The notes beneath the pieces are model-generated. The model searched no databases. It was given only the letters and a program-made list of their open reading frames with translations, and had not been told where the DNA came from. This document shows, one piece after another, positions 10,935-19,746 of a DNA stretch of 26,490 nucleotides. The stretch lies in IMG/VR virus record IMGVR_UViG_3300025137_000241, positions 1 to 26,490 of that record, one strand, 5' to 3'. The stretch comes from a virus. Both the position numbers and the translations under genes were made by a program. Each line of letters begins with the position of its first letter. Within the stretch, counting starts at the first letter, position 1.

Positions 10935-10954
10935 TAGTTGGTTATACCAATTTG

Positions 10955-10986
10955 AAAAGGGGGTTCTTCGGAACTCCCTTTTTTTT
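10955..10986 (+). terminator. Strong intrinsic terminator with UUCG tetraloop after capsid gene
   Basis: A 12-bp stem (10955-10966 with 10971-10982, one G-T pair) is capped by C(TTCG)G, one of the most stable RNA tetraloops, and runs into eight T (10979-10986). A textbook rho-independent terminator 20 nt after the capsid stop. A new late promoter starts 4 nt later, so the two transcripts are cleanly separated. Confidence 0.93.
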
Positions 10987-11003: not shown

Positions 11004-11591
11004 ATGACAGAGATTAATGCACTTAACAGACAACCAACTGAACTAGACTACGCAGACCCTACAAAGTTTAAGTTCACTATTAACAAGTTACCAACCGTAG
11101 AGTTTTTTACGTTTGCTGCTAACGTGCCTGGCGTAACGCTAGGTGACGCTATATTCCCAACTCCATTCAAAGCAATCCCAATTCAAGGTGATGACCTTAC
11201 CTTTGATAACCTTGAAATTACTTTCTTAGTTGATGAACAACTCAACAACTATAAAGAACTACATCAATGGTTAGTCGGAATAGGATTCCCCAAATCAAGA
11301 ACACAGTTCTCATCTTTCAGAACAGCTGCATCAGATACCTTCCCAACACCTTCTGGTGATAAAGGTGAGGCAACAAAACCAGGCATCGCTACACCAAATA
11401 ATGCAATGTTCGGTGATGCAATATTAACAATAATGACTAGTAAAAATAACCCTGTGGTTGAAGTGAGGTTCGCTGACTTGTTCCCTGTAGCACTAAGTGG
11501 ATTAGCATACAATCAACAGGAAACAGATATAACATATTTAACTGCAACTTGTACGTTCAGTTATCAATTATACGAAATCTTTTCAGTATAA
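11004..11591 (+). CDS. Tail-tube-like structural protein in the gp3 position
   Basis: 195 residues. Motifs FKFTINKLPTVEFFTFAANVPG, TPFKAIPIQGDDLTFDNLEITFLVDE, NYKELHQWLVGIGFP and a closing TATCTFSYQLYEIF alternate strands in the manner of tail-tube folds. The LVDE...NY..LH.WL block parallels the tube/hub family to which gp19, gp48 and gp54 belong. In marine T4-like genomes the gene between gp23 and uvsY is usually annotated gp3 (tail completion and sheath stabiliser), which fits the position. Sequence alone does not let me decide between gp3 and a gp19 paralogue. Start chosen at 11004; the upstream out-of-frame ATG at 11000 lies inside the promoter region. The stop overlaps the next late promoter. 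Confidence 0.8.
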   Translation: MTEINALNRQPTELDYADPTKFKFTINKLPTVEFFTFAANVPGVTLGDAIFPTPFKAIPIQGDDLTFDNLEITFLVDEQLNNYKELHQWLVGIGFPKSRTQFSSFRTAASDTFPTPSGDKGEATKPGIATPNNAMFGDAILTIMTSKNNPVVEVRFADLFPVALSGLAYNQQETDITYLTATCTFSYQLYEIFSV

Positions 11592-11594
11592 ATA
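11587..11594 (+). promoter_or_regulatory. Late promoter (TATAAATA) overlapping a stop codon, driving the uvsY leader
   Basis: Exact octamer whose TAA (11589-11591) is the stop codon of the preceding gene. Predicted +1 is G11600, which is also the first base of the long RNA stem described next. The first downstream gene is uvsY at 11708. Confidence 0.78.
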
Positions 11595-11599
11595 GTACT

Positions 11600-11683
11600 G
11601 TGTGAGGGTCACACCTTGACCAAAAAGTATTTTTCGGATTGTCATAATCCAATATAAGAAATGCAAGAGTAGTACCCTCACAC
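11600..11683 (+). ncRNA. Candidate structured RNA: uvsY leader element with alternative pairings
   Basis: No open frame covers this 116-nt gap (11592-11707). GTGTGAGGGT (11600-11609) pairs perfectly with ACCCTCACAC (11674-11683), closing the element from the predicted first base. Inside are three local hairpins: GGTCA/TGACC (11607-11621, 5-nt loop), AAAAA/TTTTT (11622-11634, 3-nt loop) and GGATT/AATCC (11636-11650, 5-nt loop). A competing hairpin forms at the very 5' end, GTGTGA-GGG-TCACAC (11600-11614), because TCACAC occurs twice. The leader can therefore choose between a local and a long-range pairing. The AAGGA of uvsY (11696-11700) lies 13 nt beyond the closing stem. Not a tRNA: loop sizes and lack of a T-arm exclude it. 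Role (attenuator, stability element or independent small RNA) is inference. Confidence 0.55.
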
Positions 11684-11707
11684 TATTTGAATTAACAAGG
11701 ATATATT

Positions 11708-12136
11708 ATGGACTTACAAGAGTTACAATTACAAGCAGAAAAAGACCTCAAAATAGACGATACCATTCTGGATATCGAATCTCTCAAAACACCAGAACTT
11801 TACGGCAAATATCTTCAACTTAATATAAGATGGAGTTTGTTGTTAAAACAAGCAGAATCTAACCATAGAATCTTACTTAGAAAGAAGTGGGAATATTATG
11901 GTGGGAAATCTGAACCCCAAGTGTATAGAGACAAACCCTTTGAATTAAAAATATTAAAACAAGATATTCAACTGTACCTTGATTCTGATGAGGAGATAAT
12001 TGAATCTTCTCACAAAGTTGAGTACCACAAAGCAATTGTGGATTACACAGACAAGTTGTGTCGAATGATAAACAATCGTGGATTTCAAATTAAGAACGCT
12101 ATTGATTGGAAAAGATTTATGGATGGGTCAATCTAG
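11708..12136 (+). CDS. uvsY: UvsY recombination mediator
   Basis: 142 residues (137 in T4). In T4, UvsY loads the UvsX recombinase onto gp32-coated single-stranded DNA during recombination-dependent replication and repair. The protein is helical and charged. Aligned features with T4 UvsY are the MDLQELQLQAEKDLKIDDT start, the LYGKYLQLNIRWSLLLKQAE helix, KKWEYYGGKS in place of the T4 LDYYSGRG segment, and the C-terminal INNRGFQIKNAIDWKRF (T4 IKSRGFAIKHIQDMRAF). It sits directly before uvsW, as in marine relatives. AAGGA precedes the ATG. The stop TAG overlaps the uvsW GTG by one base, coupling the two. UvsX and gp32 are not in this window. Confidence 0.93.
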   Translation: MDLQELQLQAEKDLKIDDTILDIESLKTPELYGKYLQLNIRWSLLLKQAESNHRILLRKKWEYYGGKSEPQVYRDKPFELKILKQDIQLYLDSDEEIIESSHKVEYHKAIVDYTDKLCRMINNRGFQIKNAIDWKRFMDGSI

Positions 12137-13602
12137 TGCATATCACTAAAATCAATGAAGTATATTTACACATAAAAGTAGACCAAGGCGTTGCAAGGGA
12201 GTTATCAGACTTTTTTACATTTGAAGTTCCTGGCGCTAAGTTTATGCCCCAATACAGAAGTCGTATGTGGGATGGAAAGATAAGACTATTCTCTATAATG
12301 ACAGGTGAAATATATGTTGGTTTGCTGTCATATATTGAAGAGTTTGCAAAACGAAATGAAATAGAACCAACTTATGGAGAAGGAGTTAAGGATGGAGCCA
12401 CAACCAAACCCGATGATATACGAAAATTTATTCAAAGAGTTAGACCAAGATCGAGAGGATTGGATATACAAGTTCGTGACTATCAATTTGATGCCATTCA
12501 GCACGCTATTGGAACACACCGTTCTCTTCTTGTCAGTCCTACTGCTTCGGGTAAGTCTTTAATAATCTATCTTTTATCTGTCTGGTACACATTACTACTA
12601 GATGATAAAAAGGTTCTAATACTTGTTCCAACAACATCACTGGTAGAACAGATGTATGGCGATTTTGTAGATTATGGATTTAGTGAAGAACATCTACAAA
12701 AAATATATCAAGGATATACCAAAGATATTGACAAAACTATTGTTATCTCTACATGGCAATCTGTATACAAACAACAAAAGAAATGGTTTGACCAGTTTGG
12801 TGCAGTATTCGGAGATGAAGCACATTTATTCAAAGCAAAGTCGTTAACTGGTATTATGACTAAATTAGTGAATTGCAAGTATAGACATGGACTAACTGGA
12901 ACACTAGACGGTACACAGACGCACCAATTGGTCTTAGAGGGGGTGTTTGGGAAGGCAAACAAGGTAGTTAGCACTAAAGAACTTATGGACTCAAATACAG
13001 TAGCCCAGTTAAATGTTAAGTGTATTGTACTAGATTATCCAGACGCAGACAAGAAATATATGAAAAACTTGAACTATCAAGAAGAAGTAGATCTAATAGT
13101 AAAAGATACCAGAAGAAATAATTTCATAATTAACTTGACATCTCACCTAAAAGGTAATACACTAGTATTATTTCAATTTGTAGAAAAACATGGTTTGGAA
13201 CTATTTGCTGATATGGAGAAAACTTTAACTAATAGAAAGGTGTTTAACATCTATGGTGGAACAGACACTAAGTATAGGGAAGATGTACGAAATATCACAG
13301 AAAAAGAATCTGACGCAGTTATCGTGGCATCTTATGGTACGTTTTCTACAGGGATTAATATTCGTAACCTTCATAACATCGTGTTCGCTTCGCCTTCCAA
13401 AAGTAGAATTAGGGTCTTGCAATCAATCGGGAGAACTTTGCGGCTTGGTGACAATAAAGATTCCGCTACCGTCTACGACATCGCCGATGACTTCTCCTAC
13501 AAAGGAAAACAGAATTTCACCCTAAGACACTTTCAAGAACGAATAAATATATACAACCAAGAAGAGTTCGATTACCAAATAGATAAGGTTAATATAAAAT
13601 GA
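12136..13602 (+). CDS. uvsW: UvsW superfamily 2 DNA helicase
   Basis: 488 residues from GTG 12136, which overlaps the uvsY TAG as TAGTG; T4 UvsW has about 500. A TTG further upstream (12106) lies inside uvsY and is unlikely. In T4, UvsW unwinds branched DNA and R-loops, ending origin-dependent replication and favouring recombination-dependent replication. N-terminal substrate-binding domain: FFTFEVPGAKFMPQYRSRMWDGKIRLF (about 26-52). Helicase motifs: I SPTASGKS (134-141), Ia LVPTTSLVEQ, II GDEAH (226-230), III GLTGT, V SYGTFSTGINI and VI QSIGRTLRLG. Late promoter 11587 and early readthrough are both possible. A strong minus-strand promoter lies just beyond the following gene and points back across this one. 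Confidence 0.96.
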   Translation: MHITKINEVYLHIKVDQGVARELSDFFTFEVPGAKFMPQYRSRMWDGKIRLFSIMTGEIYVGLLSYIEEFAKRNEIEPTYGEGVKDGATTKPDDIRKFIQRVRPRSRGLDIQVRDYQFDAIQHAIGTHRSLLVSPTASGKSLIIYLLSVWYTLLLDDKKVLILVPTTSLVEQMYGDFVDYGFSEEHLQKIYQGYTKDIDKTIVISTWQSVYKQQKKWFDQFGAVFGDEAHLFKAKSLTGIMTKLVNCKYRHGLTGTLDGTQTHQLVLEGVFGKANKVVSTKELMDSNTVAQLNVKCIVLDYPDADKKYMKNLNYQEEVDLIVKDTRRNNFIINLTSHLKGNTLVLFQFVEKHGLELFADMEKTLTNRKVFNIYGGTDTKYREDVRNITEKESDAVIVASYGTFSTGINIRNLHNIVFASPSKSRIRVLQSIGRTLRLGDNKDSATVYDIADDFSYKGKQNFTLRHFQERINIYNQEEFDYQIDKVNIK

Positions 13603-13979
13603 CAAATACTACTAAAATATTAAAACTATCTAGTGGAGAAGAGATAGTTGCATCAATCACTTTTGATGATGATGGTAAAGGTATCAAGGTTCTTTCCCCT
13701 CTTAAAATGCATTCAGTACCAAAGATGACAGACCGTGGACTAGATGAAGCAATGGCTCTAATGCCTTGGGTTCATTTTGGTGAAGATAAAGACTTTAATA
13801 TTAATAATTCTAATATTATTACAATGACAGATGCATCAATTGGATTAACTCGTTTCTACGAATATTGTCTTCGTAAGTTAAATAAGTTAGATGCAATATA
13901 TGAAGATGAGTTTATAGATGATGAATATGATTATGATGAAGATACAATTCCAGAACCATATACTAAAACATTACACTGA
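13599..13979 (+). CDS. Small acidic conserved protein, possibly Sm-like
   Basis: 126 residues; its ATG overlaps the uvsW TGA (ATGA), so it is translationally coupled. The N-terminal 60 residues form short strands: TKILKLSSGEEIVASITFDDDGKG, then IKVLSPLKMHSVP. The LSSGEEIVASI pattern resembles the first strands of Sm/LSm barrels. The C-terminal part is helical and ends in a strongly acidic tail (about 101-119, Asp/Glu/Tyr). I recall similar proteins in this position in marine T4-like phages, sometimes labelled LSM-domain; I cannot confirm the fold here. An RNA-binding helper next to a helicase would make sense but is speculation. Confidence 0.75.
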   Translation: MTNTTKILKLSSGEEIVASITFDDDGKGIKVLSPLKMHSVPKMTDRGLDEAMALMPWVHFGEDKDFNINNSNIITMTDASIGLTRFYEYCLRKLNKLDAIYEDEFIDDEYDYDEDTIPEPYTKTLH

Positions 13980-19246: not shown

Positions 19247-19276
19247 TACGATATGCCGAATTGGTCGGGTATCGTA
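19247..19276 (+). other. 5'-terminal stem-loop of the Hsp20 late transcript
   Basis: TACGATA (19247-19253) pairs perfectly with TATCGTA (19270-19276). Inside, CCGA (19256-19259) pairs with TCGG (19265-19268) around a 5-nt loop, separated by a small internal loop. The outer stem starts within a base of the predicted late start. 5'-terminal hairpins are known to protect bacterial mRNAs from RNase E, so mRNA stability is a likely role. Confidence 0.6.
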
Positions 19277-19305
19277 TTTAATCTTGCTTTATAAGGAGAA
19301 CTATT

Positions 19306-19746
19306 ATGGTTAATACAAAAGCATTGTCACTTTTTGACAACTTCAATCAACTCACCCCATATGCCGTAGGCTTTGAAAGACAATTTGATCGTCTAAACGA
19401 TTATATTCGACATCAACAGCAATCTACAGGCTTTCCACCTTACAATATCCAAAAGATAGAAGATTTCAAATTTGAAATCGAAATGGCACTTGCTGGTTTC
19501 AGTAAGAAGGATATTCAGATGGAAGTTGCAGATGGAGTTCTTACAGTACGTTCTGTAAAAGAGAATGATACAGATGATGAGTGGACACTACACAGAGGAA
19601 TCTCATATCGTAAGTTTGATAGAAAATTTACACTTGCAGATGATGTTGTAGTAAACGAAGCAAAACTTGAAAATGGACTTCTAACAATTTCTCTAGAACA
19701 AATCGTTCCAGAAGAAAAGAAGCCTCGTACAATTAAAATAAATTAA
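19306..19746 (+). CDS. hsp20: Hsp20/alpha-crystallin small heat shock protein
   Basis: 146 residues, IbpA-like. ATP-independent holdase that binds unfolding proteins; common in marine T4-like phages. N-terminal arm with LFDNFNQLTPYAVGFERQFDRL, then an alpha-crystallin domain (about 45-135). Its hallmarks are FKFEIEMALAGFSKKDIQMEVADGVLTVRS, the ISYRKFDRKFTLADDV strand and the closing A-x-LENGLLTISL motif. The C-terminal extension ends in RTIKIN, containing the I-x-I motif that docks between subunits. Transcribed from a perfect late promoter, so it is probably made when virion proteins accumulate and folding load is highest. Confidence 0.93.
   Translation: MVNTKALSLFDNFNQLTPYAVGFERQFDRLNDYIRHQQQSTGFPPYNIQKIEDFKFEIEMALAGFSKKDIQMEVADGVLTVRSVKENDTDDEWTLHRGISYRKFDRKFTLADDVVVNEAKLENGLLTISLEQIVPEEKKPRTIKIN

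Follow-up and report, generated by a model that had tools for sequence, protein, structure and literature searches.

A conserved RNA fold upstream of uvsY in marine and related T4-like phages, very probably an undescribed regulatory RNA family

What occupies the gap in front of uvsY in this phage DNA, and is it a switch? The window, meaning the whole 26,490-nucleotide stretch analyzed, derives, by gene content, from a marine T4-like phage, of which it is one fragment; its genes run terminase, portal, major capsid protein, tail tube, uvsY, uvsW, and then replication genes. Nearest to its capsid protein are that of Methylophilales phage Melnitz (75%) and those of the Pelagibacter phages HTVC008M and Mosig (73%). 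Recombination-dependent replication holds a central place in the biology of T4-like phages. An earlier note, written from the letters of the window, had read the gap as a switch-like structured leader that begins at the +1 predicted for a late transcript. Its structured leader at the predicted +1, with compensatory changes and no known family, stood up to analysis; its two-state switch did not. Comparison of relatives establishes that an RNA fold located in cis to uvsY, where the transcript is predicted to begin, has been conserved, and from such comparisons we conclude that 11600-11683 almost certainly represents a new structured RNA family in marine and related T4-like phages.

A predicted late promoter and a long closing stem

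Octamer TATAAATA does lie where the earlier note had placed a late promoter, and its bias toward the coding strand of related genomes (coding versus opposite strand counts of 22 to 3 in Melnitz, 20 to 1 in HTVC008M, and 27 to 3 in Mosig) supports this reading. The position of the octamer would put +1 at G11600. The gene preceding the leader is that for the tail tube rather than gp23, which corrects the gp23-uvsY spacer named earlier, and the gap is indeed devoid of a substantial open frame, the longest between tail tube and uvsY being at most 13 codons. A strong intrinsic terminator is present at 10954-10983 (+ strand), after the major capsid gene and before that for the tail tube; none was found on the + strand between tail tube and uvsY. 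The features of the locus are as follows.

11004-11591: tail tube gene, stop codon TAA at 11589-11591
11587-11594, + strand: predicted late promoter octamer TATAAATA, overlapping the tail-tube stop codon
11600-11609, + strand: 5' arm of P1, GTGTGAGGGT, beginning at the predicted +1; 10 of 10 bp with 11674-11683
11615-11618, + strand: 5' arm of P2, CTTG; CTT invariant, flanking pairs covarying across groups
11619-11622, + strand: unpaired conserved strand ACCA (AACA in most relatives), from alignments
11636-11650, + strand: P3 hairpin GGATT-GTCAT-AATCC; every group has a hairpin here, built of different letters
11651-11661, + strand: conserved strand AATATAAGAAA, directly 3' of P3, from alignments
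11664-11667, + strand: 3' arm of P2, CAAG, partner of 11615-11618 by covariation
11674-11683, + strand: 3' arm of P1, ACCCTCACAC; 10 of 10 bp with 11600-11609
11684-11707, + strand: tail free of structure, bearing the ribosome binding site AAGGAT and a conserved TTGAATT
11708-12136, + strand: uvsY, by position the regulated gene (PHROG 231, E 1.8e-46)

The closing stem claimed to run from +1 is present in full, its arms separated by 64 nt, and 24 nt lie between the end of the 3' arm and the uvsY ATG. The leader folds at -28.4 kcal/mol (z of -3.84), a stability equaled by 0 of 200 shuffles. Three local hairpins had been described inside the stem; the one at 11636-11650, P3, is kept in relatives, and the other two are not. 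The ribosome binding site of uvsY, placed by the earlier note just past the closing stem, falls outside P1 in every group of relatives described below.

A general rule that late leaders open with long stems was considered and rejected, as uvsY is exceptional among TATAAATA sites. The stem at the uvsY +1 has the top score among the 96 such sites that the window and six records of related phages contain, scoring 26 where a score of 24 is reached by 0.2% of random positions. Other late leaders of these phages begin with short hairpins, and the long form occurs only at uvsY.

Conservation and distribution of the leader

Relatives were sampled from 80 uvsY loci in IMG/VR, later extended with more, and the leader is present in four groups: that of the window (C), A, B, and D. 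UvsY identity is about 70% for group A and about 66% for group B, while group D comprises Melnitz-like phages (methylophages) and a divergent clade whose UvsY is 44 to 47% identical to that of Melnitz. The 5' letters of P1 are wholly different (GUGUGAGGGU, GGAUGAGGUU, GGUGGUGGAU, GGGUAAGGUAC, GAGCAG, and GUGAACAGGG), each with its own matching 3' arm. P1 starts 4 to 6 nt past the octamer in A and D and 2 to 5 nt past a variant octamer in most of B; in the Melnitz record (MZ577097) its first bases lie at about position 129850. Common to all groups, with small departures in some rows, is the order P1, N-CUU-N, A(A/C)CA, P3, AAUAUA, CAAG, P1', forming a closed domain of about 84 nt that ends at a nearly constant 21 to 25 nt before the ATG. 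The strand 3' of P3 reads AAUAUA(R)GAA in the window, B, and D and AAUAUAUCUAA in A, and the tail motif TTGAATTGAGGA/TTGAATTGAAGGA occurs in A and B and is absent from D. The window carries the features that define the family: the octamer followed within a few nucleotides by P1, a P2 of the form CUUN/N'AAG, P3, and AAUAUA, all directly upstream of uvsY.

Compensatory changes, proposed by the earlier note as the check on its fold, occur in P1, P2, and P3. In P1, nine of 11 alignment pairs show two-sided changes; among the 32 distinct leaders of A, B, and the window, 92.6% of P1 cells are paired, two-sided changes number 72 compared with 26.8 in shuffles, and pairing drops to 35 to 52% when the partner is slid by 1 to 3 columns. 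Because a MAFFT alignment of all groups misplaced P2 of group A, P2 was assessed group by group and through anchored comparison. One of its pairs in group D is G-C in 15 leaders, U-A in 10, A-U in 3, and U-G in 1, with none broken, and the opposite flanking pair is U-A in B, A-U in D, and C-G in A. Compensatory two-sided changes are also found in P3 within group D. Since the fold is kept despite complete replacement of the stem letters, and always before uvsY, the leader is very probably no chance hairpin but a regulatory RNA family not described before.

Across three alignments with partly shared sequences, G-U cells outnumber A-C cells by 69 to 2, which argues that selection acts on the uvsY-sense RNA. 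The same count weighs against an element acting as DNA, such as an inverted repeat within an origin like T4 ori(uvsY)/oriF. UvsW unwinds R-loops in T4, and uvsW is the next gene here; the position is also the same as that of T4 oriF (PMC3016281). However, these phages retain a late-type octamer and stems rich in G+C, unlike T4 oriF, and we consider a DNA-level role very improbable.

A simpler reading of the RNA is that P1 does nothing but base-pair the 5' end of the late uvsY mRNA, protecting it passively, with the core left unbound. P1 sits at the predicted +1 in all groups with its letters free to change, stems at the 5' end have a known effect in Escherichia coli, and the short hairpins that open other late leaders of these phages fit the same idea. 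Such a stabilizer, however, needs no unpaired core, and CUU-AACA and AAUAUA(R)GAA are kept where the P1 letters are fully replaced; the restriction of the long form to uvsY also counts against it. We judge this reading rather unlikely, if the strongest of the alternatives.

Homology searches returned the leader from models built without it. A covariance model from group B only, with the window excluded (R1), matched the window at 11601-11705 (52.8 bits, E 1.7e-7) and nowhere else in its 26 kb, and its best matches among group A were the leaders at their proper places. The best 14 matches of a model from group D (R2) were B and A leaders (E 8e-4 to 3). R2 did not find the leader of the window; the link from the window to group D goes via group B. 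No second copy was found in about 570 kb of phage genomes (Melnitz, HTVC008M, and four other records), where weak model matches at other places (E 0.7 to 3) were dismissed, one in HTVC008M lying in a neck protein gene and the other three being without leader features. Pattern scans of all IMG/VR contigs placed every model-confirmed viral copy directly before uvsY. Eight pattern matches in bacterial genomes were rejected, just one having a weak model match (E 0.05), at a different place. An A+T-rich stem following TATAAATG before uvsY in HTVC008M was likewise discarded, as it gave no model match and is missing in the relatives of HTVC008M.

This invariable linkage bears on the idea of a separate trans-acting small RNA, cut from the uvsY message or terminated before it. 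A compact closed domain of about 84 nt ending short of the ATG would suit such a molecule, but the leader is always tied to uvsY at near-constant spacing and no + strand terminator follows it, making this origin another long shot. The proposal that no known phage RNA family fits was borne out: Rfam 15 gave 0 matches at or above the gathering threshold for the window and 11 relatives, and a permissive scan of 171 nt returned an unrelated family as its best match (E 1.8).

On the UvsY tree, leaderless phages are nested in leader clades and at least three gains or losses are needed. Within the clade of the window itself there were at least two losses of the leader, which is thus not essential. 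In close relatives that have lost it (L028, L034, L042, and L102-L106), a TATAAA-type promoter abuts the uvsY ATG. The divergent clade of group D (L444) retains RNA matches of 86 to 116 bits although its UvsY is about 44% identical; either the RNA is more strongly conserved there than the neighboring protein, or it moved with recombination.

Alternative pairings and the question of a switch

The switch was first proposed because GTGTGA could pair locally with TCACAC (11609-11614) instead of closing P1. The letters are there, but the pairing has an equilibrium probability of 0 and is kept in no other group; when forced, it yields -17.5 versus -28.4 kcal/mol, about 11 kcal/mol worse. It may arise transiently while the RNA is being transcribed. 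The intrinsic terminator that would be expected of a transcription attenuator is absent from the + strand of the leader. Nor do two conserved, mutually exclusive folds of the kind that mark a riboswitch appear, the named alternative being unstable and others specific to groups, and no pseudoknot with the tail is common to all groups, whereas a gene 32-type operator would have a conserved H-type pseudoknot.

Several other pairings could nevertheless let the CUUG strand or the 5' arm of P1 re-pair, with the fold at the ribosome binding site set to ON or OFF by a ligand or protein. A P1a pairing, GGUCA/UGACC in the window, corresponds in position to GUUCAA/UUGAAC in group A. A hairpin possible in A and D, P4, competes with P2 or places CAAG in its loop. 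Over 5 bp, CCUUG of the window can pair with the CAAGG that belongs to the ribosome binding site, and A and part of B have versions of 4 to 7 bp; as CUU always matches AGG, this pairing is not independent evidence. None of these alternatives is common to all groups, and taken with the instability of the named fold and the lack of a + strand terminator, we regard a riboswitch-like or pseudoknot operator as distinctly unlikely.

The extra P4 hairpin is seen in L230, L324-L403, and L444-L465, with CAAG in or beside its loop. A P4-loop CAAG could contact CUUG loop to loop, and the two strands change in matched fashion (CUUG/CAAG, CUUU/AAAG, and CUUA/UAAG).

It is unlikely, though slightly more credible than such an operator, that the core binds a metabolite or a protein (UvsY or another operon product) and that CUUG re-pairs between CAAG and the ribosome binding site. 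If true, CUUG re-pairing would set recombination capacity late in infection.

A proposed role and known systems

We favor, at about even odds, a leader that acts in cis at the 5' terminus of the late uvsY mRNA, seals this end, and presents its core to a factor that tunes expression. The phage late polymerase would transcribe the leader as part of a uvsY-uvsW mRNA, whose 5' end is predicted from octamer spacing to be base-paired. P1 would close this end and hinder removal of pyrophosphate and 5'-end-dependent decay. Pairing at the 5' end stabilizes mRNA in E. coli, where RppH and RNase E require a single-stranded 5' end (PMC3997798); by analogy, the same protection may operate here, in different hosts (SAR11 and OM43). 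Since P1 leaves the ribosome binding site free, the default state would be ON. A putative protein of phage or host would then bind the core, AACA and AAUAUA(R)GAA, and adjust how long the operon mRNA lasts or how well it is translated late in infection, although the conserved core could serve folding alone. Candidate binding factors are UvsY itself and an Sm-like protein encoded after uvsW. The gene in that place (13599-13979, + strand) matches Pfam PF16243 below its cut-off (E 3.3e-5), and its product is possibly an RNA-binding protein of the same operon.

With an RNA family tied to uvsY in phages of abundant marine bacteria, its position set by the late promoter, and with a cultured pair available in Melnitz and OM43, post-transcriptional control of phage recombination can be put directly to the test. 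A glutamine riboswitch also sits at the tmRNA gene of Melnitz, and a T4 review states that T4 had yielded no functionally characterized riboswitch. In the main texts of the non-subscription papers searched, we found no description of a uvsY leader RNA and no structured RNA controlling T4-like recombination-replication genes. Elsewhere in the window, the leader of a phage HSP20 gene (19247-19311, + strand; open reading frame 19306-19746) resembles the ROSE_3 RNA thermometer RF02523 at 36.5 bits (E 1.2e-6), below the gathering score of 43, and Melnitz, HTVC008M, and two phages from IMG/VR have similar +1 hairpins with U(U/C)GCU...AGGAG.

Among known systems, manA (RF01745) and wcaG (RF01761) are likewise structured RNAs in 5' untranslated regions of marine T4-like phages, with ligand or partner unknown (PMC2864571), but they precede metabolic, chaperone, or exopolysaccharide genes, whereas the uvsY leader has no Rfam match. 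Stabilizing stems of the E. coli ompA/papA type pair the mRNA 5' end, as is predicted for the uvsY transcript, and leave the ribosome binding site free; in contrast to these, the uvsY stem closes over a long range (64 nt), encloses a conserved core, and belongs to one phage gene. The pseudoknot operator of T4 gene 32 is a structured leader of a T4-type DNA-metabolism gene, but of a different one, and the uvsY leader has no tail pseudoknot shared among groups. In the inhibitory hairpins of T4 genes e and soc, octamer TATAAATA also lies near mRNA structure; there the late promoter is inside the structure and late transcripts hence escape the hairpin (PMC3014915), whereas the late uvsY transcript is predicted to begin with the structure. 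Finally, at T4 oriF a transcript starting just upstream of uvsY, from a middle promoter, forms the priming R-loop at an A+T-rich unwinding element of nonspecific sequence (PMC3016281). In the window a transcript is likewise predicted to start just upstream of uvsY, but there, unlike at oriF, the octamer is of late type and the RNA fold covaries.
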